64,000 nucleotides of DNA from assembly GCA_017942035.1 (NCBI GenBank), contig JAGAVG010000045.1, positions 1 through 64,000 of the forward strand. Direction: 5' to 3'. The notes under the pieces were generated by a model, which had not been told where the DNA came from, ran no database searches, and saw nothing but the letters and a program-made list of their open reading frames with translations. Made by a program: the position numbers and the translations under genes. Below, one piece after another: positions 1 to 58,353 of the stretch (within the stretch, counting starts at the first letter, position 1; every line of letters begins with the position of its first letter). Source of the stretch: a bacterium. Its GTDB lineage: Bacteria > Cyanobacteriota > Vampirovibrionia > Gastranaerophilales > Gastranaerophilaceae.

Positions 1-1
1 C

Positions 2-760
2 CATCCGTCCGCAATTTCGCTCTCACAAAGAGAGAGGGTAAAACATGCCTTTACCTTGGCGGAGGTCTTTTCATCACACTTTGCTGGTCATCGTAAAACC
101 GCCTTTACATTGGCGGAAGTTTTAATCACCCTCGGCATAATCGGCATTGTTGCGGCACTTACAATGCCAAATCTTATTGCTAATTATCAGAAAAAACAGA
201 CTGTTACTCAATTAAAAAAAGCGTATTCACAATTAGCACAAGCTTTAAAATTATCTGAAGTTACCAACGGAGAAGTTCAATATTGGAATCTTGATGCGCC
301 TTCTGATGAGTTTGCAAACAAATATGTTTTACCATATTTAAAGCATTCAAAAATTTTACCGGTTTCCGAGGTAAATTCAAATACAAAATATAGATTTTTA
401 GATGGTACTTATGCTTCTGCAGCATCTGGTTTTTATGGCGGTACAGCAATAGAAATTGCCGATGGAACAATTATAACTGTTGACAGTTGGACTCCGAGTG
501 ATAATAGTTTTAGGACTTTTTATATAGACATAAATGGTTATAAAAAGCCGAATGTTTTTGGAAAAGACATGTTTGTATTTTGGCTAAGATCAGGAGCAGA
601 CTTAAAACCATATTTTCACCAATATACAAGAGAGGAGCTGTTATTTGATACTAGTCTTCTTCAGCGGTGTACAAAAGATAAAACTTCGTTTGCTGGAATG
701 GGTTGTGCTACAGTGATTATGCTTGACGGCTGGGAGATTAAGGATGATTACCCTTGGTAA
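2..760 (+). CDS. Prepilin-like (pseudopilin) protein, 5' end cut by window edge
   Basis: Type IV prepilin/pseudopilin, expected to be processed by a prepilin peptidase and assembled by a type II secretion/pilus machine such as the one at 10.2-16.1 kb. The cleavage motif is A|FTLAEV followed by the hydrophobic helix LITLGIIGIVAALTMP; the C-terminus is DGWEIKDDYPW. The frame is open to the left edge, so the start is not visible. TTG at 56 is the first usable in-window start, and the ATG at 45 is out of frame. Upstream residues read LSQRERVKHAFTLAEV: the dispersed repeat at 20-38 translated in frame and joined to a first copy of the FTLAEV motif, so the motif occurs twice. The middle is unlike the other prepilins here. 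The family call is firm; the start and substrate are unknown. Confidence 0.85.
   Translation, partial: HPSAISLSQRERVKHAFTLAEVFSSHFAGHRKTAFTLAEVLITLGIIGIVAALTMPNLIANYQKKQTVTQLKKAYSQLAQALKLSEVTNGEVQYWNLDAPSDEFANKYVLPYLKHSKILPVSEVNSNTKYRFLDGTYASAASGFYGGTAIEIADGTIITVDSWTPSDNSFRTFYIDINGYKKPNVFGKDMFVFWLRSGADLKPYFHQYTREELLFDTSLLQRCTKDKTSFAGMGCATVIMLDGWEIKDDYPW
20..38. repeat. Short dispersed palindromic repeat (CTCTC...GAGAGGG)
   Basis: CTCTCACAAAGAGAGAGGG forms a small hairpin. An identical copy lies at 48581-48599, downstream of another prepilin. Here it is in frame with the prepilin and would be translated as LSQRERV. Confidence 0.7.
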
Positions 761-23249: not shown

Positions 23250-23790
23250 TGTCATGGGATTGACCTCCGTGTTTCAGGATCTCCATAATAAAAGACGCTA
23301 AGATACTAAGACTTTAAGTCACTAAGTTCTTTATGGTAATGTACTTATCGTCTTACCGTCCTATCGTCTTAGCTTGTAGGGTATACATTAGTCTACCAGC
23401 TTAACTGGATTGCCACGCTCACTCCGTTCGCTCGCAATGACGATATAACCTCCCTTGTTAAAGGGAGGGGGACCGCGTCAGCGGTGATGGGATTTTTATT
23501 TGACAATTTCGAATTACAATCCCCTACCGTTGTCGCTGTAATGACCCCTCACCCCAACCCTCTCCCACAAGGGGCGAGGGGGCTTGCAATCCTTAGCTTG
23601 TAGGGTAGACTTTAGTCTACCAGCTTAACTTCCTTACTTACTCACTTATTTACTTTTAATTAATTTCACATAAAAAGAAAGACCCATTTTACTGAGTCTT
23701 TTTCTTCACTTTCTACCTTACTACTACACAAGCTCTCAATTCTTCCTTTTACATAAATATGAGAGGAATCATTAAGTATAAATATACATT
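23250..23790. repeat. 540-bp gene-free block of at least six dispersed repeats
   Basis: In order: a degenerate CCTGAA/TTCAGGAT element (23250-23283); the 81-bp AAGACGCTAAGA family (about 23292-23372); a degenerate family A palindrome (23380); a GGATTGCCACGCT...GCAATGAC element (about 23407-23442); two G-rich elements (CCTCCCTTGTTAAAGGGAGG near 23450 and an imperfect CCCTCTCCC/GGGGCGAGGG near 23550-23582); and an exact family A palindrome (23604-23621). No coding potential is visible. Confidence 0.8.
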
Positions 23791-31580: not shown

Positions 31581-32495
31581 ATGAGTATTAATAAAAATTC
31601 AAAAAATTATCTGGAAGATTTTAAATCCTATATTATAGTAGAGAAAAATTTTTCAAAATATACCGCAAAATCGTATTATTCAGACCTTTTAAGTTATTTA
31701 ATATGGTTGGATGAAACACCTTGTGAAAATGTAAATTTTTCTAAAGTTCGAGAATATTTGCATTTTATACAAAAATTTAATTATAAAAAAACTACAGTTG
31801 CACGAAAAATTTCATCAATTAAAACTTTTTATAAGTATCTTTGCCGCGAGCAAAAAATTGAAATTAATCCGGCATTAAATTTGAATGCTCCCAAAAAACC
31901 GAAGGCTTTGCCAAAATTTTTGACGCCGGATGAGGTTGAGAAAATTTTAAATAATATTAAAATTGAAACTCCGGCAGGTTACAGAAACAGGGCTATTCTG
32001 GAACTTTTGTGGGCGACCGGAATGCGTGTATCGGAACTTAGCGGTCTTAATTTCGGAGATTTGGATTTAGATAATAACGAAATAAAAGTTTTCGGTAAAG
32101 GCTCAAAGGAAAGAATTATTCTTGTCTCGGATAGGGCTAAAAATTACCTGAAACGCTACATTGATACGGCTCGGCCATTAGTAGCAAAAGGATACCGTTT
32201 AGAAGAAACAACGGAAAGCACCCCAATTTTTATTAATAAAACCGGCTACAGACTTCAGCCTCGTATGATTAGGAATGTAATAAATGAGGTTGTGGAAAAA
32301 ATTCAGTTGCCCAAACACGTTTCGCCGCACATGTTCAGACATAGTTTTGCGACACATTTGATAGAAAATGGAGCGGATTTGAGGGTTGTTCAAGAGCTTC
32401 TCGGCCATGCCAGCATTTCTAATACTCAAATTTACACCCATGTTTCGACCCAACACTTGAAAGATGTTTATAACGAAACCCATCCGCGGGCATAG
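31581..32495 (+). CDS. xerC: XerC/XerD-type tyrosine recombinase
   Basis: A 304-aa site-specific recombinase, probably for chromosome dimer resolution at dif. The N-terminal SAM-like core-binding domain spans about 10-90. The catalytic domain carries the full set: Arg in ATGMRVSEL, Lys in FGKGSKER, His-x-x-Arg in HMFRHSFATH, His in ELLGHASI and Tyr in TQIYTH. Its size and HMFRHSFATHLIENGADLR are those of XerC/D rather than an integron or phage integrase. A TATAAT at about 31536 gives a leader of about 40 nt. Two 81-bp repeats and palindromes follow it. Confidence 0.92.
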   Translation: MSINKNSKNYLEDFKSYIIVEKNFSKYTAKSYYSDLLSYLIWLDETPCENVNFSKVREYLHFIQKFNYKKTTVARKISSIKTFYKYLCREQKIEINPALNLNAPKKPKALPKFLTPDEVEKILNNIKIETPAGYRNRAILELLWATGMRVSELSGLNFGDLDLDNNEIKVFGKGSKERIILVSDRAKNYLKRYIDTARPLVAKGYRLEETTESTPIFINKTGYRLQPRMIRNVINEVVEKIQLPKHVSPHMFRHSFATHLIENGADLRVVQELLGHASISNTQIYTHVSTQHLKDVYNETHPRA

Positions 32496-32502
32496 TTAAC
32501 AT

Positions 32503-32583
32503 AAGACGCTAAGATACTAAGACTTTAAGTCACTAAGTTCTTTACGGTAATGCACTTATCGTCTTACCGTCCTATCGTCTTAG
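32503..32583. repeat. 81-bp dispersed repeat (AAGACGCTAAGA family), copy 1 of a tandem pair
   Basis: Nearly identical to 32639-32719 and about 23292-23372, with a partial copy at 37093-37127. It begins AAGACGCTAAGATACTAAG and ends TATCGTCTTAG, so the ends are loosely inverted; the centre has GACTTTAAGTC. A family A palindrome follows each full copy. Confidence 0.85.
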
Positions 32584-32638
32584 AATGGTAGGGTAGACTT
32601 TAGTCTACCAATGGAACAGATGTCAGGAAGGCTAAAAA

Positions 32639-32719
32639 AAGACGCTAAGATGCTAAGACTTTAAGTCACTAAGTTCTTTATGGTAATGCACTTATCGTCT
32701 TACCGTCCTATCGTCTTAG
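32639..32719. repeat. 81-bp dispersed repeat, copy 2 of a tandem pair
   Basis: Differs from copy 1 at only a few bases and is likewise followed by a family A palindrome, so the tandem unit is about 135 bp. Confidence 0.85.
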
Positions 32720-32759
32720 AATTGTAGGGTAGACTTTAGTCTACCCTACAATTGTTTTT
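32720..32759 (+). terminator. Extended family A palindrome acting as a probable terminator
   Basis: Arms of 16 bp (32720-32735 and 32738-32753) around the family A core, followed by GTTTTT. On the plus strand this has terminator form for xerC. It abuts the rpoD stop codon on the other strand. Confidence 0.65.
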
Positions 32760-37052: not shown

Positions 37053-37362
37053 TATATAATATGTTTCATGGGTTCAGCATCTCCAGAATAAAAGACGCTA
37101 AGATACTAAGACGATAAGACGCTAAGAAGTTACGTGATATCCATGTCATGCTGAATTTATTTCAGCATCTCTATAATAAAAGGCACTAAGATACTAGGGT
37201 ACTAAGGATTATCAGATGTAAATTCTTCCTCACTTCCTTGCCTATTAACTTATTTACTTTAACGAGATTGCCACATTCCGCCTCGCAATGACATAATCTT
37301 TTAAATTTATTTTGTTTGTTGTAAAATCTATTTGAATTTGTTTAATACGGGGATTTTAAATT
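37053..37362. repeat. 310-bp gene-free stretch of dispersed repeats
   Basis: Contains a fragment of a TTCAGCATCTCC element (about 37072), a partial 81-bp family copy (37093-37127) and an inverted copy of the GIY-YIG-flanking hairpin (37143-37171). Then come the GTAAATTCTTCCTCACTTCC element (about 37212) and a short GAGATTGCCAC...CAATGAC element (37264-37290). TGTAAAAT near 37326 is a likely -10 for the next gene. Confidence 0.75.
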
Positions 37363-46550: not shown

Positions 46551-47207
46551 TTAAATTCCATTATCAACAATGACTTTTGCGAGTATTCCGTTAATGAACG
46601 ATGCGCTGTCATCAGTTGAATATTTTTTCGCAAGTTCAATTGCCTCATCGACAATAACTTTCATTGGAGCGTCTTTCAAATAAATCAATTCAACAATTGC
46701 GATACGCAAAATATCTTTGTCCATTTTTACCATACGCTGAATATCCCAATTTTTGGCATATTTTTGAATAGTATCGTCAACTTCTTTGTGATTTTTCTGG
46801 AAAGTTTCAGCGATTTTTACTGCATAATCTTTCACGTCGTTTTGAGAATCTAATGTTGTAAACTCAGCGATTTCCAATGCTGCGAGTGATTTTTCCGCAA
46901 TGTCAATCATTTCGTTAATTCTTCCGGTCATATCCGACGTCATCGGAAGCGGAACGGGAATATTTGAGACGCCTAAAGGTCTTTCCAGATTTGTTTCGTG
47001 GTTTGCTTCGTAAGTCTCAATGTTGTCTCTCATTTCAATCAATGCGCCCAGCGTAATTTTTAATTCGTCGCTTGCATTGCTAGATAAAATTCGAACAGAT
47101 TTCAAAATTATGTCTTTTAAATCTTCTTTAGAATAGCTGACTATTTTTTTATCAAATTGTGAAAACAATATAAATGCCAGTTCTCTGGCGGCTCTGCGGG
47201 CTTGCAT
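46551..47207 (-). CDS. nusB: Transcription antitermination factor NusB
   Basis: RNA-binding helical protein that acts with NusE in rRNA antitermination. At 218 aa it is much longer than the roughly 140-aa E. coli protein. The start (RRAARELAFILFSQFD) and C-terminal core (DKDILRIAIVELIYLKDAPMKVIVDEAIELAKKYSTDDSASFINGILAKV) are canonical. An extra segment of about 70 residues lies between them, as in cyanobacterial NusB. Apparently monocistronic. Confidence 0.93.
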   Translation of the reverse strand: MQARRAARELAFILFSQFDKKIVSYSKEDLKDIILKSVRILSSNASDELKITLGALIEMRDNIETYEANHETNLERPLGVSNIPVPLPMTSDMTGRINEMIDIAEKSLAALEIAEFTTLDSQNDVKDYAVKIAETFQKNHKEVDDTIQKYAKNWDIQRMVKMDKDILRIAIVELIYLKDAPMKVIVDEAIELAKKYSTDDSASFINGILAKVIVDNGI

Positions 47208-47392
47208 AACTTTCTTATTCCTTTATTTCTTATACTAATATTTGGAACAATCTTAGCACGAAAAAAATTTTATCTCAAGAGGGAAAATTTGGGACTTATA
47301 TACAAGTTTATACTAAATTTACCTATATATGTCACCCTGAACGTCGGATTAACCTCCGTGTTTCAGAATCTCATAATTTTGATGTAAAAAAC

Positions 47393-47559
47393 GCACCAAA
47401 TTTTATATTTTGATGCGAGTTTTTTATAGCCTTATTATACAATATTTTACGCCACATTTCAAGTGGTCGTTTGTCGTTTTTTAATGATTTTTTGAATTTT
47501 AAAAAGGTATGTTTTAGTGAATTTCAGGCCTACATGCACCAAAATATAAATTATGGTGC
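47393..47559. mobile_element. MITE-like element, copy 1
   Basis: A 167-bp noncoding element, nearly identical inside to 56946-57113. The left end is a 27-bp terminal repeat beginning GCACCAAATTTTATATTTTG; the right end is its inverse with 22 of 27 matches. No transposase and no clear target duplication are seen. It lies 45 bp upstream of a prepilin start. Confidence 0.75.
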
Positions 47560-47590
47560 ATGAATTTAAAGAGTAGTTTAAGTCTGAAAA

Positions 47591-47596
47591 AGGAGG
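47591..47596 (+). promoter_or_regulatory. Ribosome-binding site setting the prepilin start
   Basis: AGGAGG, 8 nt before ATG 47605. This near-perfect site argues that translation starts here, upstream of the embedded repeats, rather than at ATG 47782, which has no such site. Confidence 0.7.
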
Positions 47597-47604
47597 CTGA
47601 AAGG

Positions 47605-48528
47605 ATGAATATATTTGAAGAACAGAGGGTAAGTAGTAGGGTAGACTTTAGTCTACCAGAAAAACTGGATTGCCACGCTTCTTACTCGTCGGCGTTAAAC
47701 GGGTCTACGGTTGTCGCCGGCAATGGTTTTGCCATTTTGTCGACAAGCCTTCGCCCTCTGCCTCCTCGCGCGTCGCTTGCAATGACAAAGGCTTTTACCC
47801 TGGCCGAAGTCTTTTCATCACACTTTGCCGGTCGTCGTAAAACCGCGTTTACTTTGGCCGAAGTTTTGATTACTCTCGGGATAATCGGCATTGTTGCGGC
47901 GATGACCATGCCGGCATTGATTACTAAGCATCAAAAACAGGTTACTGTCACACGTTTGAGGAAGTATTACACCATAATGGCGCAGGCAAAATTGCTTTCA
48001 GAAGTTCAAAATGGAGAAATGGAATATTGGGAGTTCCCGTATACTTTTTCAAAAACTGATATCAGACCCTTTTTTGACAAGTATTTTCGGCCATATATGG
48101 ATGTAATAAACGAGTGTGAATCAGCAAAAAGTTGTAGTTCACTTTACAGCAATACACGTCCTGTTTATACTCTTAAAGATGGTATGCAATTTATGTTTTC
48201 TCCCAATCCACAGACTGATACTTTAAATTCCGGAAGAAAATATATACATACTGGAGTTGATATAAATGGTAATAAAGGGCCGAATAGAGAAGGACGAGAT
48301 ATATTTTATGTAAATATTTATCCGAAAGAAGGTGCGGTAATGCTAGGTCAATTTTCGAATGGTAAAAATCCTAATCGTGAAGAATTAAAGACAGGAATTT
48401 CTGCAAATAGCGGCCACGATACCAGTTGCTGCAGTCATACTTGTGCAACTCCAAGTTTTAAATATTTAAACTGCGGGGCATTAATTCAGTTCGATGGCTG
48501 GCAAATTAAGGATGACTATCCTTGGTAA
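47605..48528 (+). CDS. Prepilin-like protein with repeat-derived extended leader and duplicated motif
   Basis: A 307-aa pseudopilin. From ATG 47605 the first 64 residues are mostly translated dispersed repeats: SRVDFSLP is the family A palindrome, and EKLDCHASYS...RASLAMTK is a GGATTGCCACGCT...GCAATGACA element with an insert. These run in frame into AFTLAEVFSSHFAGRRKTA|FTLAEVLITLGIIGIVAAMTMP, so the cleavage motif occurs twice. The same duplicated segment is in the prepilin at the left edge. The C-terminus is DGWQIKDDYPW. ATG 47782 (MTKAFTLAEV) is an alternative start, supplied by the repeat itself. The mature region is Cys-containing (DTSCCSHTCATP). Confidence 0.85.
   Translation: MNIFEEQRVSSRVDFSLPEKLDCHASYSSALNGSTVVAGNGFAILSTSLRPLPPRASLAMTKAFTLAEVFSSHFAGRRKTAFTLAEVLITLGIIGIVAAMTMPALITKHQKQVTVTRLRKYYTIMAQAKLLSEVQNGEMEYWEFPYTFSKTDIRPFFDKYFRPYMDVINECESAKSCSSLYSNTRPVYTLKDGMQFMFSPNPQTDTLNSGRKYIHTGVDINGNKGPNREGRDIFYVNIYPKEGAVMLGQFSNGKNPNREELKTGISANSGHDTSCCSHTCATPSFKYLNCGALIQFDGWQIKDDYPW
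47640..47788 (+). repeat. Dispersed repeats embedded in frame in a prepilin gene
   Basis: The family A palindrome (47640-47657) is followed by a GGATTGCCACGCT...GCAATGAC element (about 47668-47788) with an internal insert. About 38 bp of that insert (47733-47770) recurs at 57125-57162. Confidence 0.75.
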
Positions 48529-48697
48529 AACCCTCTCCCGATTTTGTAAGTTCGCATATTGCTCACTAACAAAATCTGCCCTCTCACAAAGAGAGAGGGC
48601 TAAAATTAGTAATGTCGGATTAGTAAATCCGACCTACTACCTTCTGGATTGCCGCGTCGCTTGCGCTCCTCGCAATGACGGAACTGTTTCTTTTTCC
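48529..48697. repeat. Repeats downstream of the prepilin
   Basis: Contains CTCTCACAAAGAGAGAGGG (48581-48599, as at 20-38), a GTCGGATT-agt-AATCCGAC hairpin (about 48613-48631) and a GGATTGCCGCG...CTCGCAATGAC element (48652-48680). Confidence 0.75.
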
Positions 48698-49678
48698 TTA
48701 TTCAGCAATCAATTGTTCGCCAAAGGAAAACACTTGAGCTATCGCACTTTGTTTTACGGGTTTATAAAAATCTTTTACAAGAACGCATTTTGTCTGGATA
48801 CAGTTTAAGTTTTTTGAATGAAGATATTCTTCAAATTTATCCGCGTTTTCATTGTATTGACGGTGTTTTATAAACGCGCAGAATTTCGTTTTGCGTTTGG
48901 AAATTTCGCCGAGGGCAAAGTTAAAGATTTCATCATAAGAGATTTCGTACGCATTATTTTTAGAAATATCAATGATAAAATTGAAATTATCGCTTGTTGT
49001 TATTGAAAGATAACAAATAATTCTTTTTTTTGTTTCATCTTCAAGAACATACCTGTTTTTGTAAAAATTTACAAAACCTTTAAAAAACGGCTCTCTAAAT
49101 TCTGTTTTTATTCGCTCTAAAGTCGGTTTATATATAGATTTAAGCTCGCTGTTGTACAACCTTGCAACTGCTGCGGCATCAGAATTCTGGCAATATCTGA
49201 AAGGAGCTTTGTTTTGTGATGTCGGATTGAAATTTTCAATTTTCCACAAGTTTTCGTACGAACATAGTCTGAATCCGCATCCTTTAATGAAAAGTTCTCG
49301 GAGCTCATCATGGCATTCATCAACCGAAACATTGAATGAAACCGCTCCTCTTGCGCCAAATCTCGCGATTACAAATTCAACAAGCTGCTTGCCGACATCG
49401 TACATATTCTGAAGAAAAACAAGACGGGTTATGTTGATTTTGTAAGGGTTTCCGGAGGTCGGTGCAACTGTTATAAGCCCAAGAATTTCTTTGCCTGAAA
49501 CAAGAACAAAAGATTCTGGTAAAAAACAAAATTTCAACGGGAGAAGGTTTTGAGCTTTTAATAAAATTTCATTTTTCAAAGCCTTTGTAAATTCCGCACC
49601 CTCGGTGTTTCCCAGATATGAAATCATCTTTTTTATCTTAGGAATATCAAAACAGTTCAATCTTCTTATTCTTATCAT
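48698..49678 (-). CDS. GNAT-like acetyltransferase-fold protein
   Basis: A 326-aa protein beginning MIRIRRLNCFDIPKIKKMISY, as GNAT proteins often do. ITRLVFLQNMYDVGKQLVEFVIARFGARGAVSFNVSV and ELFIKGCGFRLCSYENLWKIE resemble the acetyl-CoA-binding and C-terminal parts of that fold. A second, weaker GNAT-like half may follow (RYCQNSDAAAVARLYNSEL). The substrate is unknown. The frame is open further upstream, but the TATAAT 6 nt before ATG 49678 fixes the start. Confidence 0.6.
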   Translation of the reverse strand: MIRIRRLNCFDIPKIKKMISYLGNTEGAEFTKALKNEILLKAQNLLPLKFCFLPESFVLVSGKEILGLITVAPTSGNPYKINITRLVFLQNMYDVGKQLVEFVIARFGARGAVSFNVSVDECHDELRELFIKGCGFRLCSYENLWKIENFNPTSQNKAPFRYCQNSDAAAVARLYNSELKSIYKPTLERIKTEFREPFFKGFVNFYKNRYVLEDETKKRIICYLSITTSDNFNFIIDISKNNAYEISYDEIFNFALGEISKRKTKFCAFIKHRQYNENADKFEEYLHSKNLNCIQTKCVLVKDFYKPVKQSAIAQVFSFGEQLIAE

Positions 49679-49684
49679 ATTAGT

Positions 49685-49713
49685 ATTATATAAAAATTTT
49701 TGAAAGTTCGCAA
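49685..49713 (-). promoter_or_regulatory. Leaderless promoter of the GNAT-like gene
   Basis: On the minus strand: TTGCGA (49713-49708), a 17-bp spacer, TATAAT (49690-49685), then 6 nt to the ATG at 49678. It overlaps the upstream region of the divergent dehydrogenase gene. Confidence 0.75.
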
Positions 49714-49747
49714 GGTTTGTGATAATATTTTTGAGCGAGGCGGAATT

Positions 49748-50785
49748 ATGAAAATAGCAGTCATAAATAATGAAAAAATAAAAATTGAGAATGTTGAAAA
49801 CCTTCATCTGAACGCGCAAAAAGGTGCAATTGTAAAAGTTTTGTGCTGTGGATTGTGCGGAAGTGATATCGTAAAATTCAGAGAAAAAATATCGCCGAAC
49901 GGTACGGTTTTAGGACATGAAATCGTTGCTGAGATTGTGGATATAAATTCATCAACAGATTTTAAAACCGGCGATGTTATCGTTACATCACACCATATTC
50001 CGTGCGGGGAATGCTTATACTGCAAGTCCGGAAATGTTTCAATGTGCAAGCATTTTAAATCTACTAACATTGTTCCGGGCGGATTTTCTGAATACGTTTA
50101 TTTATCAGAAGAACACCTCCAAAATGTTGCACACTTAAAACCTGAAAATCTTTCGCTTGAAGAGGCTTCTTTTTATGAACCGTTAGGCTGTTGCGTTCGG
50201 GCAATTAAAAGATGTGATTTAAAAGAGGGCGCAAATGCTGTGGTAATCGGCTTAGGCTCTATCGGAATTTTGATGTCGCAGGCATTGAAGGCTTATGGCG
50301 TGAATGTAATCGGGTTTGACCTTTTAGATGAACGCATAGGATTTTTAAAATCAAAAGGGGTTGATGCGATAAACCCTTTGAATTTAGAAGAGGCGCTTTC
50401 TTACGTTAAATCAAAAACTAATGATTACGGCGCAGATGCTGTGTTTATGACATCAGGAGCGGATAAAGCGCTTGACACTGCTCTAAAAGTTGTGAGAAAC
50501 GGCGGGAAAATTCTTGTTTTTTCAAGCACTCCTAAAAATTCGGGATATCCGAATAACGAAATTTATTACCGCGAACTAACGATTTTAGGAAGCTATTCGC
50601 CGTCACCTGCGGATTTGAAAGATTCTTTGGAACTTTTAAAGTCCGGAAAGGTTGATGTTAAAAATATTTCAACGGAATACAAGTTAGATAAAATTCAACA
50701 AGCTTTTGAGGACACAGTTTCAAACAAAATTATGAAAGCTTGCATAAATATAGGAACAGAAGGTAATTTAAAGGAAAAAATATAA
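49748..50785 (+). CDS. Zinc-dependent medium-chain dehydrogenase, first of a pair
   Basis: A 345-aa MDR-family alcohol/polyol dehydrogenase. The catalytic zinc site is formed by CGLCGSDIVKF, GHEIVAEI and the FYEPLGC region; the structural zinc site is CGECLYCKSGNVSMC. The NAD-binding Rossmann motif is VIGLGSIGILMSQALKAYG. It resembles sorbitol, threonine or galactitol-1-phosphate dehydrogenases. GAGGCGG precedes ATG 49748. It overlaps the next gene by 1 bp, so the two are co-translated. Confidence 0.87.
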   Translation: MKIAVINNEKIKIENVENLHLNAQKGAIVKVLCCGLCGSDIVKFREKISPNGTVLGHEIVAEIVDINSSTDFKTGDVIVTSHHIPCGECLYCKSGNVSMCKHFKSTNIVPGGFSEYVYLSEEHLQNVAHLKPENLSLEEASFYEPLGCCVRAIKRCDLKEGANAVVIGLGSIGILMSQALKAYGVNVIGFDLLDERIGFLKSKGVDAINPLNLEEALSYVKSKTNDYGADAVFMTSGADKALDTALKVVRNGGKILVFSSTPKNSGYPNNEIYYRELTILGSYSPSPADLKDSLELLKSGKVDVKNISTEYKLDKIQQAFEDTVSNKIMKACINIGTEGNLKEKI

Positions 50786-51831
50786 TGAAAGCCATACAAT
50801 ATTACGGGCCTTTGGATATAAAATATGAAGAAGTTATGGTAAAACCGCCGCAGGAAGGCGAAGTTGTCGTAAAAGTAATGTCGGCACTCACTTGCGGAAC
50901 AGACGTAAAGACTTTTCGCCGCGGTCATCCGGTGCTTATAAAATCAACTCCGTCAGGATTTGGTCATGAATTTGCAGGAATTGTGGATAAGGTCGGGAAA
51001 AACGTAACCAATGTAAAAGTCGGCGATCGTGTTGTGGCGGCAAATTCAGCCCCTTGCGGAAAGTGTTTTTTCTGTAAGAGAGAAGAGTACAATTTATGCG
51101 AAAATCTTGACCTTTTAAACGGTGCTTATGCCCAGTATATTACTGTTCCGGCGCGAATTGTCGAGAAAAATATGCTTATTTTGCCGGATAATTTGAGTTT
51201 TGACAAAGCCGCATTCTGTGAACCTCTTGCAAATGTTGTCCACGGGGTCGAAAGAACCGGAATTAAAAAAGGCGATACAGTCGGGATTATCGGGATTGGG
51301 CCGATAGGATTGATGTTTGCAAGACTTGCCAAATTAAAAGGTGCAAATGTAATTGTTGCCGGACGCAACCCGATAAAACTCAAAGCCGCAGAAGATTTTG
51401 CCCATGCTGATGAAATTGTTGATTTGAAAAAATATCCAAACCCTGAAAAAATCTTTAGAGAATACACGGAAGAAAAGAAAGGGCTTGATGTTGCCGTTGA
51501 ATGTGTCGGATTGCCTGATATTTGGGAAAGAATTTTCTCATGTGTAAGGCCTGGCGGAACCGTTCATTTCTTTGGCGGGTGCAAATCAGGGTCTACTGTC
51601 ACTTTTGACACTACAAAAATGCACTATGGCGACATAAAATTGATGAGCGTATTTCACCATACTCCGAAATATTTCCGTATGGCTCTTGATTATATTGCAA
51701 ACGGAGACGTTGAGGTTGAAAAGCTCATCACGGCAACTTTGGGGCTTAAAGATGTTGAATACGCTATGGGACAACATATTGACGGTAAGGCCATAAAATT
51801 CCTTATAAAACCTTGGGAAGATTTATCTTAA
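50785..51831 (+). CDS. Zinc-dependent medium-chain dehydrogenase, second of a pair
   Basis: A 348-aa MDR-family paralogue of the preceding enzyme. It has CGTDVKTFRRGHP and GFGHEFAGIVDKVG (catalytic zinc), CGKCFFCKREEYNLC (structural zinc) and GIIGIGPIGLMFARLAKLKG (NAD binding). The sequence also resembles L-threonine or sorbitol dehydrogenases. Two adjacent dehydrogenases with overlapping stop and start codons may act on successive or related polyol substrates. The 3' end overlaps the convergent mntP by 9 bp. Confidence 0.87.
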   Translation: MKAIQYYGPLDIKYEEVMVKPPQEGEVVVKVMSALTCGTDVKTFRRGHPVLIKSTPSGFGHEFAGIVDKVGKNVTNVKVGDRVVAANSAPCGKCFFCKREEYNLCENLDLLNGAYAQYITVPARIVEKNMLILPDNLSFDKAAFCEPLANVVHGVERTGIKKGDTVGIIGIGPIGLMFARLAKLKGANVIVAGRNPIKLKAAEDFAHADEIVDLKKYPNPEKIFREYTEEKKGLDVAVECVGLPDIWERIFSCVRPGGTVHFFGGCKSGSTVTFDTTKMHYGDIKLMSVFHHTPKYFRMALDYIANGDVEVEKLITATLGLKDVEYAMGQHIDGKAIKFLIKPWEDLS

Positions 51832-52368
51832 AAGTGCTTTTAGAGCAAGGACGATAAGGATTAGCCCGCCTGAGACTTCAAAGTATTTTGAGGGGAATTT
51901 TTTGAGAAAATTCCCAAACCAAAATCCGGCGAGTGACATAAAAAACGAGAAAATTCCTATCATCAACGCAGGAATTAAGAGTGTGTTGCCTGAAAATACG
52001 AAACTTCCGCCGGCTGCAAGCGCATCTATGCTTGTAGCAAGTCCCATGAGCATTAAACATTTTAATCCGATACAGCAAATTTCCGGTTTGTCCTCTTTGC
52101 TCAAGGCTTCTGATATGAATTTCATTCCCAAAATCATAAAAATTCCAAATACAATAAATTTGCTAAAAGGTTCGATGTAAGTTTTTATCGTATAAGCTCC
52201 TAAATACCCGATACAAGGCATTAATCCCTGAAACAATCCCATTGTTAGGGCGAGCAGAAGGGAATTTTTCCGTCTGTGAGAGGTGAAGATTAACCCTTGC
52301 GAAAACGAAACGACGAGGCAATCAATTCCCATTGCAATACTTAAAAATATTATTTCAGTTAAATTCAA
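51823..52368 (-). CDS. mntP: MntP-like manganese efflux pump
   Basis: A 181-aa inner-membrane protein with six hydrophobic helices in two inverted repeats, each with the family motif: AMGIDCLVVSFSQGL near residue 12 and GLATSIDALAAGGSF near 110. The aspartates of these motifs are the metal ligands in MntP. It belongs to the MntP/YtaF family and is of usual size. It overlaps the upstream DUF4127 gene by 14 bp. Confidence 0.85.
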   Translation of the reverse strand: MNLTEIIFLSIAMGIDCLVVSFSQGLIFTSHRRKNSLLLALTMGLFQGLMPCIGYLGAYTIKTYIEPFSKFIVFGIFMILGMKFISEALSKEDKPEICCIGLKCLMLMGLATSIDALAAGGSFVFSGNTLLIPALMIGIFSFFMSLAGFWFGNFLKKFPSKYFEVSGGLILIVLALKALLR

Positions 52369-53728
52369 TTTCTACCTCAAACAATCTTTTCCAAGGAAAA
52401 GAATACTTTACTTCTGGCATGTTTTCAATTCCTAAAACATCCTTTAACATATTTTCGTATATTTTCATTTTTTTAGCAAGTTCTTCACTGTCGGGGGCTG
52501 AAAGTTCCTGCCGGATGTTCGCTTGATAAGCCCAATCGTCGAGAAACCTTGTCAAATTCAATTTTTCTACAGCTTTTTTATTATAATTCTTTTTTGCACA
52601 ATACCGGCAAATCATTGCGCAAATGAGGCTCCCCAGAGAGTTTGCCGAAGTGTTCCAAGCGGAATATCCAAGAAAATTTTCGGATTTTAAAATTTCAGAA
52701 TTTTTAAAAAGTTCTTTTACAAAACTGTTATCGCTTCCGTTTGCAAATCTCACATCTGCAAGGGCAAAAGGTTTATCTAAAGCCGGTGTAAAACTTTCGC
52801 TGAAACTTTCTGTCGGAACTTTCATTACAATTTCGCCCTGACGCGTTTTAAAGTTGTTCACATAAAGAATAATATCCGCCTCTTTTTCTTCAACAATCTC
52901 ACATCCGGCAAGTTCAAGCTGGCCTTTCACCGATTTTTCGATTGAAATATCTTCGTAATTTGAAATAAGATTTTTACCCTCCGGCTCTAAAAATATCGGT
53001 GTAACTTTCAATCCGCAGTCTAAATTATCAGTTATAGCGCGTGATAAAAGGCTCATCGGAATTTCATCAGCGCCGGTTTTTACAAACCCGCCTAAATCTT
53101 GCAAAAATTTTGCCTCCTGAACATTAAATCCATACTCCGCACAATCATCTTTTGAAAAAATTAAGGTGTCGAAAAGCCCTTCTTTTTGCCATTCGAGATA
53201 TATTTTGTTTATTTCAAAATTCCGCTTTCTTGTGTTCAGGTAATCCTCCAGAATATCTGTTGGAATTACATTATGAATACAGCTTTCACATCCGAGTTTG
53301 TGGGTTTGATAAGAGTAGTCGAAAATCTTTTTGCCCCACCTGTCCCAATAAGGTTTTTCTTCCTCGTTTACATTGTTGTTGGAAATTCTCATAACACTTG
53401 AAAATGCGTAAATTTTACAACTTTTTTCTTTTAAAATTTCTTTTAGTTTAAGGATTTTTTCTTTGATTTGTTCGAAAGTTTCCGGACATCTTCTTGAAGA
53501 TATTAACCCGCCATAAGCCGCTGTATCGAGGGATAAAATAAGTGCATCAAGATTTTCCAACCCTCTTAACCATTCAAAAATTCTTTCGGTATCGGCGTAT
53601 TTTGTGAGATTCCCGAGTGAATTTCTATCCGGCATCAAAATTTCAATGTCAGAATTGCATTGTGTAATAAGTTCCGGCAAAGTATAGCAAACCGGCCGGT
53701 CATCTATTGGTAAAAATCCTATTCTCAT
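52355..53728 (-). CDS. DUF4127 family protein
   Basis: A 457-aa protein matching the DUF4127 family by its N-terminus FLPIDDRPVCYTLPELIT, LILSLDTAAYGGLISSRR, VMRISNNNVNEEEKPYW and SAWNTSANSLGS near the C-terminus. The biochemical function of the family is not established. There is no signal peptide. Overlap with mntP (14 bp) suggests a shared transcript. Confidence 0.8.
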   Translation of the reverse strand: MRIGFLPIDDRPVCYTLPELITQCNSDIEILMPDRNSLGNLTKYADTERIFEWLRGLENLDALILSLDTAAYGGLISSRRCPETFEQIKEKILKLKEILKEKSCKIYAFSSVMRISNNNVNEEEKPYWDRWGKKIFDYSYQTHKLGCESCIHNVIPTDILEDYLNTRKRNFEINKIYLEWQKEGLFDTLIFSKDDCAEYGFNVQEAKFLQDLGGFVKTGADEIPMSLLSRAITDNLDCGLKVTPIFLEPEGKNLISNYEDISIEKSVKGQLELAGCEIVEEKEADIILYVNNFKTRQGEIVMKVPTESFSESFTPALDKPFALADVRFANGSDNSFVKELFKNSEILKSENFLGYSAWNTSANSLGSLICAMICRYCAKKNYNKKAVEKLNLTRFLDDWAYQANIRQELSAPDSEELAKKMKIYENMLKDVLGIENMPEVKYSFPWKRLFEVEIEFN

Positions 53729-53778
53729 AATTTTGATTATATGTTAATATTTAAAAACATGCAAAGAGGTTAAATTTT

Positions 53779-54450
53779 ATGACAGTTGATAAATCGCCTG
53801 AAAATATCAAAAATATTTTCAATATGATTGCTAAAAAATACGATTTGATAAATAATTTAATGTCGTTTTCTACTCATAAATTTATCAAAAAATCTTCACT
53901 TTCAATGCTTGAACTTCCTTCCGGCGCAAAGGTTCTCGACTGTTGCTGCGGAACAGGCGATATTTCAGGAATGCTTGTGAAAAAATTTCCTTTTTCAAAA
54001 GTTGTCGGAATAGATTTTTCTGAAAAGATGCTTGAAATCGCAAGAAAAAAGATAAAAAATGTTGAGTTTATCGAGGGTGACTGCCGCAACATGAAATTTG
54101 ACGACAAAACTTTTGATGCGGTTACGATATCCTTCGGGCTTAGAAATATCAAAGATTACAACCGCACAATTGAAGAAATGCACCGCGTGTTAAAAGACGG
54201 CGGGCAGCTTTTGTATATAGATTTTGACAAAAGGAAATTCAGCAATAAATTTTTCGACATTGCAGTTTTCTTAATTGCAAATATTTTTAAATCCTACAAA
54301 GCGGCATATAAATATTTGATAAAATCAAAAAACGAATTTTTTACACCAGAAGAGCTTGAAAAAATATTAAATTCCAAAGGTTTTAGTCTCAAACATCAAA
54401 AGTCTTATGCTGGCGGTGTAATTTATTCTGCGTTATATGTAAAAAGTTAG
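53779..54450 (+). CDS. ubiE: Demethylmenaquinone/ubiquinone C-methyltransferase family (MenG/UbiE)
   Basis: A 223-aa SAM-dependent methyltransferase. Motif I is VLDCCCGTGDISGML, then VVGIDFSEKMLEIARKKI, EGDCRNMKF and ITISFGLRNIKDYNRTIEEMHRVLKDGGQLLYIDF, which is specific to UbiE/MenG. It should methylate a demethylated quinone late in menaquinone or plastoquinone-type synthesis. No other quinone genes are in the window. AGAGG precedes the ATG. The unusual CCC in motif I does not remove a known key residue. Confidence 0.9.
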   Translation: MTVDKSPENIKNIFNMIAKKYDLINNLMSFSTHKFIKKSSLSMLELPSGAKVLDCCCGTGDISGMLVKKFPFSKVVGIDFSEKMLEIARKKIKNVEFIEGDCRNMKFDDKTFDAVTISFGLRNIKDYNRTIEEMHRVLKDGGQLLYIDFDKRKFSNKFFDIAVFLIANIFKSYKAAYKYLIKSKNEFFTPEELEKILNSKGFSLKHQKSYAGGVIYSALYVKS

Positions 54451-54532
54451 TAAAAACAAATTTTGATGACAAAATTAATTCTTTATAGTAAAATCAATTT
54501 GTACAGTTACCAACACAGAAAGAGAGTACAAA

Positions 54533-55834
54533 ATGTTGACAAAGAATTCATCAGTAAAAACAAGTTTTTCAGGTATTGATTTTAGTAAATACGCATCGAA
54601 AACTTCTGAATTTGTAAAAGAATTTGCTTCTAGAGCGAATAAAAAAGGATATTTCCTCAACTGGGTAGATTTGCCGAAAGAACAGCTGAAAAGAGTTGAC
54701 GAACTTTATTCAATGGTTGAAAATTTCAAAAAGCAGACTGGAAATTCTGTTTTAAGCGTTATGGGTATCGGCGGTTCAAAACATACCGTTGAACACATGC
54801 TTTCAATTAACGGTTTGAATATTAATTCTGATTCTGTAGTATTTTATTCAGATGTTGATTCTATAAGCTGGGAAAGATTTTTAACAAAATTAGGCCATGA
54901 TGTTACATCAGCAAATTTTATGATTGCGTCAAAATCAGGGTCAACTTTTGAAACAAAAGATGGATTTTTGAGAGTTCAAAACCTTCTTCTTGACGCTTAT
55001 ATGGCAAAAGGCCAGTCAAAAGAAGATGCTATGAAATCAGTTAGCAAACATTTTATTGCCGTAACTGATGCAAACAGCGAAAAAAGCGAACTTCGCAGAA
55101 CCTCTAACGAAAACGGATGGATTGGTGATTTGTTCATCCATGATGACGTTGGCGGAAGATTTTCAGCGTTTGACGATCACGCATTATTCACTCTTATCTG
55201 GGCAGGAATGAAAAAAGAAGATATGATTTCAATGCTTTCTTCTGCTCAAGAAATGTCTGAACAGTCATTATCAGATGATTTGGAAATTAATGATGCGTTG
55301 AAAGAAGGTATTTTCTGGGCTGATGCAAGCTTAAACGGCATTAAAGCATCTGTTCATCAATATATGGGTTCAATGTTTGAAAATACTGTTTACTGGCATG
55401 CACAAATGCAAAATGAATCAGTTAAAGACACGCTGAAACAGGTTGCGAAAGTTCCGGATGCAATGCACCACAGTGCAGAAGCTCACTTCAATCCAGCAAA
55501 CAAACTTGTTTTTGCATTAACTGTTCCGGTTGATAATGGTGTATGTTCTGAAAACGCTGAGGCTTATATCGGAGCATTGTCAAAATCTTATGAAATTACC
55601 GGCGCAACTTTTGTTGAAAGAGTTGAAACATCTTCACTTGGTCTAACTCCTCAAGCCGCAGGCGCTATGACAATGTTAAGAGCATTCGCAACTGTATATC
55701 AAGAAATTGTGACTGCTATTATGACAGGTAAAGAACTTCCGGAAGTTCTGGACAGTGTACTTCAACCGCACGTTGAATTCTACAAAAAGAATTTGAAAGG
55801 CGGAGTAGTCGTTCCGGGAAGAGTTTCTAAATAG
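54533..55834 (+). CDS. pgi: Glucose-6-phosphate isomerase
   Basis: A 433-aa phosphoglucose isomerase interconverting glucose-6-phosphate and fructose-6-phosphate. Both SIS subdomains are present: VMGIGGSKHTVEHML, SKSGSTFETKDGFL (phosphate-binding serines), DVGGRFSAFDDHALF, and the C-terminal HSAEAHFNPAN with the general region VERVETSSLGLTPQ. It is shorter than the E. coli enzyme but similar to compact bacterial forms. A strong terminator follows 20 bp after the stop. Confidence 0.9.
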   Translation: MLTKNSSVKTSFSGIDFSKYASKTSEFVKEFASRANKKGYFLNWVDLPKEQLKRVDELYSMVENFKKQTGNSVLSVMGIGGSKHTVEHMLSINGLNINSDSVVFYSDVDSISWERFLTKLGHDVTSANFMIASKSGSTFETKDGFLRVQNLLLDAYMAKGQSKEDAMKSVSKHFIAVTDANSEKSELRRTSNENGWIGDLFIHDDVGGRFSAFDDHALFTLIWAGMKKEDMISMLSSAQEMSEQSLSDDLEINDALKEGIFWADASLNGIKASVHQYMGSMFENTVYWHAQMQNESVKDTLKQVAKVPDAMHHSAEAHFNPANKLVFALTVPVDNGVCSENAEAYIGALSKSYEITGATFVERVETSSLGLTPQAAGAMTMLRAFATVYQEIVTAIMTGKELPEVLDSVLQPHVEFYKKNLKGGVVVPGRVSK

Positions 55835-55854
55835 AAATTCTTTTATATATTTCA

Positions 55855-55888
55855 AAAGGGCATGTAATAATTTACATGCCCTTTATTA
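55855..55888 (+). terminator. Rho-independent terminator of pgi
   Basis: AAAGGGCATGTAA (55855-55867) pairs with TTACATGCCCTTT (55872-55884), followed by ATTA. Confidence 0.85.
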
Positions 55889-55901
55889 TGCATTTTATCA
55901 A

Positions 55902-56101
55902 CTTTCGTTTAATGGGACGGCTGGCAAATTGTCCTTATTTACTTACCATAGATAATCTTTTTTTTATTTGCCACCGGACACAGTCCGGTCCTACGTGTTG
56001 CCGGTTTTGGTTTAATCTTGTCAATTTTCGTTCAATAGGACGGCTGGCAAATTGTCCTTATTTACTTACCATGGATAATCTTTTTTTATTTGCCAGCCGT
56101 C
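55902..56101 (-). repeat. Tandem copies of the prepilin 3' cassette
   Basis: Two copies of about 70 bp: 55902-55972 (remnant) and 56025-56101 (the real 3' end of the adjacent prepilin). They are separated by a CCGGAC-N3-GTCCGG hairpin segment shared with 800-860. In the real copy, GACGGCTGGCAAAT (56039-56052) and ATTTGCCAGCCGTC (56088-56101) are exact inverted repeats spanning the stop codon. The remnant lacks one arm and is frameshifted by an extra T. Confidence 0.8.
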
Positions 56102-56905
56102 TTTGATAATTAAGCGGGCACAATTATCTTTACCTCTTTGACAATTCCGCAATAAATCACTGCGCGAAATTTCCGGAGCTTCATCAGATGAAGCCCCATA
56201 AGGTTCAATCCTTTTACCAGCACCTATTATCGGTTGTCTTTGGTCATTACCTCTTCCGTATAAGAAAACAAATATATCTCTTCCTAACTTATTAGGACCA
56301 GCATCCGGGCCATCAATATCAATCAGAACTTTGCCGCCATCGCCTCCGCACCAGTAAAGGTAATTATAAGTTATGCAAGCCCCATTTTTCAATCTTACGG
56401 AATAACTATTTGCACATGTCCCTGGATATCCGGGATAAGATTTCCCGGGATTTTTACACATAATATCATCCGGTCCGGTTGCTTTTGGGTAACGTTCAGC
56501 AACAGCTACTTTATCGAAAGTCAAACCAAAACATCTTGTCATTCCATAATCGCCATACTCATAATTAGGGCAGGTCCAATGCTGCATTCCTAAACCATCA
56601 AAATCGTAACTTGCAGCACTCATACCTTGAATAATAATTGAATATGTTTGTTTCAACTTGTTAAGGGCAGATTGTTTCTGAAATCCCTCAATCAACGCCG
56701 GCAAAGTAAGAGCCGCAACAATGCCGATTATCCCGAGAGTGATTAAGACCTCTGCCAAGGTAAACGCGACCTTCGTCATTGCGAGCGAGTGAAATGAGCG
56801 TGACAATCCAGTGATTAATGGTAGACTAAAGTCTACCCTACTAATATTTTTTATCATAATATCCTGTTTCAAATTTCTTCCTTTCATAATTCTATATCTT
56901 AGCAT
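56066..56905 (-). CDS. Prepilin-like protein with repeat-derived extended leader
   Basis: A 279-aa pseudopilin. Translation from the ATG at 56905 is supported by AAAGGAG 5 nt upstream. The long leader reads in frame through the family A palindrome (SRVDFSLP) and a GGATTGTCACGCTC...GCAATGACG element (GLSRSFHSLAMTK). It then enters VA|FTLAEVLITLGIIGIVAALTLP, with a single cleavage motif. A short-leader alternative is the repeat's own ATG (MTKVAFTLAEV). The C-terminus DGWQIKKDYPW is encoded by one arm of an exact inverted repeat. The mature part is Gly/Cys-rich (CPNYEYGDYGMTRC). Confidence 0.87.
   Translation of the reverse strand: MLRYRIMKGRNLKQDIMIKNISRVDFSLPLITGLSRSFHSLAMTKVAFTLAEVLITLGIIGIVAALTLPALIEGFQKQSALNKLKQTYSIIIQGMSAASYDFDGLGMQHWTCPNYEYGDYGMTRCFGLTFDKVAVAERYPKATGPDDIMCKNPGKSYPGYPGTCANSYSVRLKNGACITYNYLYWCGGDGGKVLIDIDGPDAGPNKLGRDIFVFLYGRGNDQRQPIIGAGKRIEPYGASSDEAPEISRSDLLRNCQRGKDNCARLIIKDGWQIKKDYPW
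56764..56837 (-). repeat. Dispersed repeats embedded in frame in a prepilin leader
   Basis: The family A palindrome (56820-56837) is followed in the gene's direction by a GGATTGTCACGCTC...CTCGCAATGAC element (about 56776-56812). The order and reading frame match those in the prepilin at 47605. Confidence 0.75.
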
Positions 56906-56910
56906 CCTGT

Positions 56911-56917
56911 CTCCTTT
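56911..56917 (-). promoter_or_regulatory. Ribosome-binding site setting the prepilin start
   Basis: AAAGGAG on the minus strand, 5 nt before the ATG at 56905. Confidence 0.65.
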
Positions 56918-56945
56918 CCAACCATAAACTGACGTTTAAATTTTC

Positions 56946-57113
56946 GCACCAAATTTTATATTTTGATGCGAGTTTTTTTATAGCCTTATTATACAATATT
57001 TTCGGACACATTTCAAGTTGTCGTTTGTCGTTTTTTAATGATTTTTTGAATTTTAAAAAGGTATGTTTTAGTGAATTTCAGGCCTACTCGCATCAAAATA
57101 TAAAATTTGGTGC
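56946..57113. mobile_element. MITE-like element, copy 2
   Basis: A 168-bp noncoding element with exact 27-bp terminal inverted repeats (56946-56972 and 57087-57113), beginning GCACCAAATTTTATATTTTG. Its interior is nearly identical to 47393-47559. It lies between a prepilin start and ychF. No transposase is nearby. Confidence 0.8.
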
Positions 57114-57124
57114 GTTTTTTGCGT

Positions 57125-57178
57125 CATTTTGTCGACAAGCCTTCGCCCTCTGCCTCCTCGCGCTCCGCTCGCAATGAC
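57125..57178. repeat. Copy of the insert found inside the 47605 prepilin leader
   Basis: CATTTTGTCGACAAGCC... matches 47733-47770, continuing into a CGCTCGCAATGAC end. Here it is noncoding, between the MITE-like element and ychF. Confidence 0.7.
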
Positions 57179-57255
57179 TAAAGCGGGATACAATTTATTG
57201 CACCAAAAAACTTTTTTATGGTATAATAAAAACCTGAAAAAGAGGAAATATAAAT

Positions 57256-58353
57256 ATGTTAAGAACAGGGATTGTAGGATTGCCTAATGTTGGCAAATCA
57301 ACTTTATTTAATGCACTAACCAGCGCTAAAAATGCACAGAGCGCAAATTATCCGTTTTGTACAATAGAACCGAATGTCGGGGTTGTAAACGTTCCGGACA
57401 GCCGGCTTGAAATTCTTGCAAAACTTTGCAAAACAGATGTGATTATCCCGACAGCAATTGAATTTGTCGATATCGCAGGGCTTGTAAAAGGGGCAAGCAA
57501 AGGTGAAGGGCTTGGCAATCAGTTTTTGCACAATATTAGAGAAGTTGATGCGATAATTCAGGTAGTAAGATGTTTTGACGACCCGAACACAATCCATGTC
57601 TCAGGAAGAGTTGACCCGCTTGATGATATCGAAATTATCAACACAGAACTTGCGCTTGCCGATATGGCATCTGTTGAAAAACAGATTGCAAAAGTTTCTA
57701 AAGTAGCAAAATCAGGAGATAAAGATGCAGTTTTGACGCTTTCTGTTCTTGAAAAAATGCAAAAACTCCTTGAAGATGCAACATTCATAAATCTAAAAGA
57801 ACATTTTGACGAAGATGAAATTCCGGTGGCAAAAAGTTTGAATTTAATGTCAACAAAACCGGTTATTTATGCGGCAAATGTTTCTGAATTTGACCTGAAA
57901 GACGGAAATGATTATACAAAAAAAGTTGAAGAATATGCGAAATCTCATGGTGCTGAAATGGTTATTATTTCAGCAAGAATTGAAGAAGAATTGGCTGAAC
58001 TTTCAGCCGATGAGGCAAGTGAATATTTGAAAGATTTAGGGGTTGAAGATAGCGGTATTAATCGTATGATTAAATCGGTTTATCACCTATTGAATTTGCG
58101 AACATTTATCACTGCGGGCGAAAAAGAAGTCCATGCTTGGACGATTCCGGCTGGCGCTAAAGCTCCGCAGGCGGCCGGTGTAATCCATACGGATTTTGAA
58201 AAAGGCTTTATCAGAGCAGAGATTACTCCTTATGAAGAATTTGTAAAAAACGGCTCTTACACGGCTTGCAAAGATAAAGGGGTTACACGCCTTGAAGGTA
58301 AAGATTATGTTGTTGAAGACGGCGATTTGGTTCATTTCAGATTTTCTGTTTAA
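57256..58353 (+). CDS. ychF: YchF/OLA1-type GTPase/ATPase
   Basis: A 365-aa Obg-related P-loop protein linked to ribosomes and stress. G1 is GLPNVGKSTLFNALT, the switch region ANYPFCTIEPN and G3 DIAGLVKGASKGEGLGNQFL. The G4-equivalent is degenerate (YAANVSE), as expected for a family that prefers ATP. A C-terminal TGS domain (about 280-365: LRTFITAGEKEVHAWTIPAGAKAPQAAGVIHTDFEKGFI) completes it. A TATAAT upstream and AGAGGA before the ATG give a short conventional leader. Confidence 0.95.
   Translation: MLRTGIVGLPNVGKSTLFNALTSAKNAQSANYPFCTIEPNVGVVNVPDSRLEILAKLCKTDVIIPTAIEFVDIAGLVKGASKGEGLGNQFLHNIREVDAIIQVVRCFDDPNTIHVSGRVDPLDDIEIINTELALADMASVEKQIAKVSKVAKSGDKDAVLTLSVLEKMQKLLEDATFINLKEHFDEDEIPVAKSLNLMSTKPVIYAANVSEFDLKDGNDYTKKVEEYAKSHGAEMVIISARIEEELAELSADEASEYLKDLGVEDSGINRMIKSVYHLLNLRTFITAGEKEVHAWTIPAGAKAPQAAGVIHTDFEKGFIRAEITPYEEFVKNGSYTACKDKGVTRLEGKDYVVEDGDLVHFRFSV

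Follow-up and report, generated by a model that had tools for sequence, protein, structure and literature searches.

In-frame palindromic repeats in the long prepilin leaders of a Gastranaerophilales genome

The stretch of DNA analyzed here (the window, 64,000 nucleotides) belongs to the 1.99-Mb draft genome, in 84 contigs, of an uncultured gut bacterium related to cyanobacteria. In this genome 142 FTLAEV DNA motifs were found, some of them tandem copies within one gene, and 105 distinct prepilin loci were read. Close relatives by prepilin sequence were mostly Candidatus Gastranaerophilales / Melainabacteria. The prepilin genes of the window and their features were as follows.

47420–47559, plus strand: shared promoter or 5' untranslated block of prepilin 1, 94% identical to 56974–57113
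47591–47596, plus strand: Shine-Dalgarno AGGAGG of prepilin 1, seen in the sequence
47605–48528, plus strand: prepilin 1 gene, with codons 1–81 as the leader and the mature domain from 47848
47636–47657, plus strand: family A palindrome in leader 1, GTAG + GGTAGACTTTAGTCTACC, read as SRVDFSLP (GTAG tag at 47636–47639, palindrome at 47640–47657)
47667–47787, plus strand: CGTC/TGTC-type REP GGATTGCC...GCAATGACA with a long loop, read as LDCHA...SLAMTK
47794–47847, plus strand: 54-nt tandem copy of the FTLAEV block (FTLAEVFSSHFAGRRKTA), inside leader 1
47848–48525, plus strand: predicted mature pilin 1, after the A that precedes FTLAEVLITLGIIG
56066–56905, minus strand: prepilin 2 gene, with FTLAEV at 56764
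56774–56810, minus strand: CGTC-type REP in leader 2 (TGLSRSFHSLAMT)
56820–56841, minus strand: family A GTAG REP, in frame in leader 2, read as SRVDFSLP
56974–57113, minus strand: shared promoter or 5' untranslated block of prepilin 2
1–760, plus strand: prepilin 3, cut by the contig start, with an in-frame LSQRERV repeat and then FTLAEV blocks at 50 and 104

As the earlier note had described, the reading frame of prepilin 1 ran open from ATG 47605, behind its AGGAGG, through the family A palindrome and the second element to FTLAEV. This motif stands at 47794 and, an exact tandem step of 54 nt further on, at 47848 as well. The prepilin beginning at 56905 also showed, as claimed, repeats in the order and frame of gene 1; this gene lies on the minus strand, which had been left unstated, and its CGTC REP differs in register from that of gene 1 at its start and is in the same frame at its end. 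The LSQRERV repeat reported at the corresponding place of the left-edge prepilin was also in frame, in a gene truncated by the contig start. Prepilin 1 matched N_methyl PF07963 (residues 77–101) and DUF6613 PF20318 in Pfam, and PF07963 and TIGR02532 were both above cut-off. Prepilin 2 matched no Pfam family and gave weak, sub-cut-off matches to NCBIfam pilin models, and was assigned as a prepilin by its FTLAEV helix and by alignment. A search of 47000–57400 against Rfam gave no match. The 140-nt 5' block (47420–47559 and 56974–57113) is common to most prepilins of the genome, lying upstream of 76 of the 105, and contains an inverted repeat, GCACCAAAATATAAATTATGGTGC; it is a possible common operator or promoter. 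Tandem copies of the FTLAEV block (two to five) were observed inside leaders in the window (47794–47901 and 50–157) and at loci L054, L080, L091, and L132; the block is 54 nt in the genome of the window, and similar duplications occur in at least two other genera (L132 and genome G016).

Family A consists of GTAG followed by GGTAGACT.TT.AGTCTACC, with an 8-bp stem. The palindrome was dispersed at 120 sites across the genome (2.0 Mb), and the GTAG tag preceded 55 of the 57 oriented copies. The second element, on the other strand, has the form [C/T]GTC-ATTGC...GCAAT-CCA and was tagged in 34 of 41 copies (CGTC in 23 and TGTC in 11); its stem begins with AT, and CCA is the commonest tail, present in about half of the copies. 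The TGTCATCCTGAA...TTCAGGAT element is built in the same way, and the GGATTGCC...GCAATGACA element had 12 matches in its own genome. The GGATTGCC...GCAATGAC and TGTCATCCTGAAC elements are CGTC-type REPs, and these repeats and family A match the CGTC and GTAG REP superfamilies, respectively, as defined in PMC3733652. Further stem-loops in the leaders were of the CCCTC...GAGGG type and CTCTCACAAAGAGAG. The copy number, the tag, and the 8-bp stem of family A are those of GTAG REPs and REPINs; GTAG REPs, however, are mostly extragenic and often accompanied by a RAYT (Y1 transposase) gene, which is common and not universal (PMC3733652), whereas 43 sampled copies here are in-frame leader sequence and the RAYT domain PF01797 was absent from a search of the draft genome in which the controls were positive. 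A RAYT transposase was accordingly dropped as the mover of the repeats.

Conservation of frame was analyzed by a frame-blind procedure, in which the shared 5' untranslated block served as the anchor and the first ATG with a Shine-Dalgarno sequence was taken, whatever its frame. In 72 of 73 genes the anchored ATG shared the frame of FTLAEV, with 37 distinct in-frame leader lengths from 27 to 405 nt, and there were no in-frame stops in 3,686 codons, compared with 354 and 348 per 3,614 codons (~9.7%) in the other two frames. When near-identical leaders were collapsed, 57 of 58 were in frame, so that the one-in-three frame conservation that the earlier note had set as its yardstick was far exceeded in both sets; the corresponding binomial p of ~2e-26 against 1/3 assumes independence and overstates certainty, because it treats as independent leaders that, as paralogues, are not. 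Of the 38 distinct leader lengths 37 were multiples of three, and for the non-redundant set Markov resampling gave 4.7 expected open, compared with 57 observed. Paralogues have a common history, and there have thus been fewer events than genes; it is the stop counts and the distinct lengths, rather than the p values, that carry the weight. In the sole out-of-frame gene, L070 (minus strand), a second ATG, overlapping the first and 8 nt further on, has the right frame. Three more anchored genes had no ATG fitting the Shine-Dalgarno pattern; in two of them a start-like ATG led without a stop to FTLAEV in its own frame, and the third, at a contig edge, had no clear start.

Frame was also analyzed repeat by repeat. 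The 43 family A copies lying no more than 400 nt before FTLAEV all had the same orientation and frame, at 12 distances. The CGTC element occurred in two registers (EKLDCHASLAMTK and LITGLPRSLRSLAMTK), both of which finished in the same frame, +1 nt in the preceding spacer being offset by +8 nt in the loop. Module B (~138 nt, TSLNTLAPCGRG...LSQRERV) was intact in all 17 of its leader copies, whereas the 4 copies found elsewhere were all frameshifted. As frame discriminators, modules C and D were weak, their consensus often being open in non-leader copies too. Most prepilins had leaders of 27–135 codons built from dispersed palindromes, and 60 of 72 leaders were longer than 26 amino acids; some paralogues in the same genome had leaders of 9–14 codons without repeats. 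That REP-built, in-frame leaders are a genuine feature of dozens of prepilin genes is strongly supported.

The placement of the repeats was counted in ~458 kb of sequence, with some overlap between stretches, most of which had been picked for the prepilins in them. Of the intact family A copies, 42 lay in prepilin leaders, 19 between genes, and one in another ORF, and this last copy proved to be in the leader of a further prepilin, with FTLAEA. No intact family A was found in a mature pilin or in any other gene over the ~306 kb of other ORFs covered. The choice of stretches around prepilins inflates the leader share and leaves the absence from other ORFs unaffected. The parallel with Rickettsia palindromic elements (RPEs) drawn in the earlier note was a good one as regards the kind of repeat: RPEs, like the repeats described here, are short palindromes lying in frame in protein-coding genes, CGTC-1 and CGTC-4 REPs include RPE-6 and RPE-4, and the tag of these is also found on GGATTGCC...GCAATGAC and TGTCATCCTGAAC (PMC3733652). 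It did not extend to their distribution, as RPEs occur in many unrelated genes and are kept in the protein, whereas in the sequence covered here the intact family A copies were all in intergenic DNA or in prepilin leaders, which are predicted to be cut off, and were absent from unrelated genes. Palindromes become coding sequence as in RPEs, but only in one gene family and there in a segment that should be removed. This extends in-frame palindromes beyond Rickettsia-like lineages and lets nature show which coding positions tolerate repeats, as REPs that are apparently excluded from other genes have been accepted in frame dozens of times in a peptide that would be discarded.

The leader of a type IV prepilin is hydrophilic, 6–26 amino acids long, and ends in Gly, and it remains in the cytoplasm, where it is removed (PMC4471445). 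The leaders in this genome were hydrophilic, with a net positive charge in 58 of 72, and that of prepilin 1 was predicted to be disordered (pLDDT <50, residues 1–56). The invariant FTLAEV..TLGIIG that follows is a class III signal peptide with E5 and a hydrophobic helix. These proteins share with known type IV prepilins a leader that is hydrophilic and positive, an A or G in front of F, the Glu5, and the hydrophobic helix, but differ from them in leaders of up to 135 amino acids, several times longer than those described, in tandem FTLAEV copies, and in Ala instead of the usual Gly at position -1 (96 of 105 prepilins in the genome). The predicted structure of the pilin had a long N-terminal helix and strands; a fold search of the PDB gave no significant match, and a profile search gave weak matches to PilE1, PilA, and geopilin. 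Prepilin peptidase (PF01478) was found at one locus in the genome, as an ORF of 329 amino acids.

We consider it highly probable that the leader is a permissive, disposable tail, which absorbs in-frame REPs, is translated, and is then removed by the peptidase. GTAG and CGTC REPs and other stem-loop repeats would repeatedly land, or recombine in, between a short start block and the cleavage site; insertions keeping the frame would survive, and those breaking it, with loss of the pilin, would be lost or compensated. The ribosome would start at the Shine-Dalgarno ATG and read through the repeats, the positive, disordered tail would remain in the cytoplasm as the FTLAEV helix goes into the membrane, and the sole detected prepilin peptidase would cut the tail after A or G, so that the repeat-encoded peptide would never reach the pilus. 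Since a hydrophilic, in-frame tail should be harmless, such a leader could absorb repeats, and it is an apparent safe landing site for them. The frame, the lack of stops, the start signals, the tags of the repeats, the recurrence in other genera, and the existence of a peptidase are observed; translation of the leader, its cleavage, and the neutrality of the peptide are what we infer in this scheme. The earlier note had gone further, proposing that the repeats were domesticated as leader sequence. In-frame coding was supported, but as to function the data indicated only tolerance and the purging of frame-breaking changes, and tolerance is thus better supported than domestication.

Among the relatives, two genomes of the same genus (G001 and G002), plus G012, had mainly short leaders, and three (G005, G014, and G016), each of another genus, had long in-frame leaders made from other repeats, a recurrence in at least three other genera that takes the pattern beyond what the earlier note had described. 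Repeats in these long leaders include HCERMRSNPA, SVGWAYLPN, and CHCERLKGASQSY. Family A was present in 41 copies in G014 and occurred once or not at all in the remaining relatives searched, and the anchored test in G016 gave 6 of 6 genes in frame. A run of C or G of at least 8 within 400 nt upstream of FTLAEV was found in 48 of 88 prepilins of the relatives, compared with 4 of 329 control windows. These tracts, of 8–12 C or G, directly follow a Shine-Dalgarno ATG (G014, G005, and loci L099–L178, for example L118, L104, L106, and L152). From the tract to FTLAEV the frame was open in 42 of 48 cases, compared with 4 and 1 in the other frames, and there was no in-frame stop in this stretch in 24 of 24 genes of G014 and 6 of 6 of G005; of the 39 tract prepilins for which a nearby Shine-Dalgarno ATG was found, only 3 had that ATG in frame and open. 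In their place just after the start codon and in the dependence of the frame on their length, the tracts resemble the homopolymeric tracts of phase-variable contingency loci, with the difference that many prepilin paralogues per genome appear to have one each. As far as can be read from the sequences, they are probably phase-variable, with the assemblies mostly in the OFF state, and belong to a large pilin repertoire; on the same reading, the tract pattern is independent support that translation in this gene family begins a long way before FTLAEV. No C/G tract of 7 or more was found in the genome of the window. A short ORF, MQKxxIDRISGGGAT(N/D)-stop, with a G11 tract was also observed ~165–175 nt before prepilins with short leaders, and it terminates ahead of the pilin start (L212, L214, L218, L221, L234, and L237 in G012; also L122, L144, and L162); it is perhaps an upstream switch.

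The frame could also have been kept mainly by descent, a few in-frame cassettes of promoter, start, and repeats having multiplied and been exchanged among the prepilin genes through recombination or gene conversion, with few new insertions, and although we think this rather unlikely as the main explanation, several observations agree with it. Family A always has one orientation despite a second open register on the other strand, the 5' anchor is common to 76 of 105 genes, the 54-nt tandem blocks suggest recombination, and mature domains that are 70–88% identical bear unrelated leaders and start blocks. From this last observation, recombination of 5' cassettes probably spreads the leaders, with the reservation that in draft assemblies misjoins could mimic individual pairings of leader and mature domain. 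However, 37 multiples of three among 38 distinct lengths need selection for frame after shuffling, and the compensating non-triplet changes, the broken copies outside leaders, and the different repeats in other genera likewise count against descent alone. As frame selection would still be needed, descent describes the route by which leaders spread and does not contradict their translation. Less probable, in our judgment, is that the repeats were adopted for a function in the leader, as recombination handles for pilin variation or as coding hairpins that tune translation. The repeats are dense in one gene family, the leader is uncoupled from the mature domain, and the presumably phase-variable tracts of the relatives occupy the same leader, which would make the leader a place where expression is controlled in this family; on the other hand, no element is universal, repeat-free leaders of 9–14 codons are found in the same genome, sister species of the same genus lack such repeats, and the types of repeat vary between genera.

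Translation through the repeats, which the disposable-tail reading needs, was also compared with the case in which they are untranslated and lie in the 5' untranslated region, translation starting at a repeat-supplied ATG (GCAATGAC) or near FTLAEV. Some leaders do hold an in-frame repeat ATG (AMTK), and where REPs sit at the start of ORFs in other species, a start further downstream was considered likely (PMC3733652). Against this, no ATG follows codon 8 in 34 of 72 leaders, and 22 lack GTG and TTG as well; the repeat's own ATG is thus not the general start, and the strong Shine-Dalgarno site sits at the upstream ATG. The alternative in the earlier note, that the ATG inside GCAATGAC is the true start, is disfavored on these grounds, and since stops are absent from the FTLAEV frame and frequent in both other frames, and the relatives' tracts are open to FTLAEV mainly in that one frame, we regard untranslated repeats as very improbable. 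Repeat-free paralogues use the same start block as repeat-bearing ones (MNIEDKKVA/FTLAEV), which suggests that the repeats were inserted into a short ancestral leader. That short-read misjoins at repeats made the mosaics is hardly credible: many prepilins do lie at contig ends of the 84-contig assembly, but misjoins would not give 57 of 58 leaders a length in whole triplets and a frame free of stops, many copies lie well within long contigs, and the pattern recurs in independent assemblies.

The prepilin leader of Gastranaerophilales may further serve generally as a variation module, placed before a conserved cleavage site, in which phase-switch tracts, REPs, and tandem duplications of the cleavage site gather and which is swapped between paralogues; we put this forward tentatively, leaning somewhat against it. 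If it were true, tens of pilins per genome could be silenced, expressed, or re-promotered with the mature subunit unaltered. No report of repeat-built prepilin leaders or of pilin phase variation in Gastranaerophilales was found in the open-access literature searched, and these results suggest that a common gut lineage, on whose pili the searches brought up little, has a pilin repertoire that is probably phase-variable. Apart from the prepilin genes, the window contains another dispersed and tandem repeat family, GACGCTAAGATACTAAGACTTTAAGTCACTAAG, which is intergenic and lies at 23273–23398, 32484–32745, and 37073–37214.
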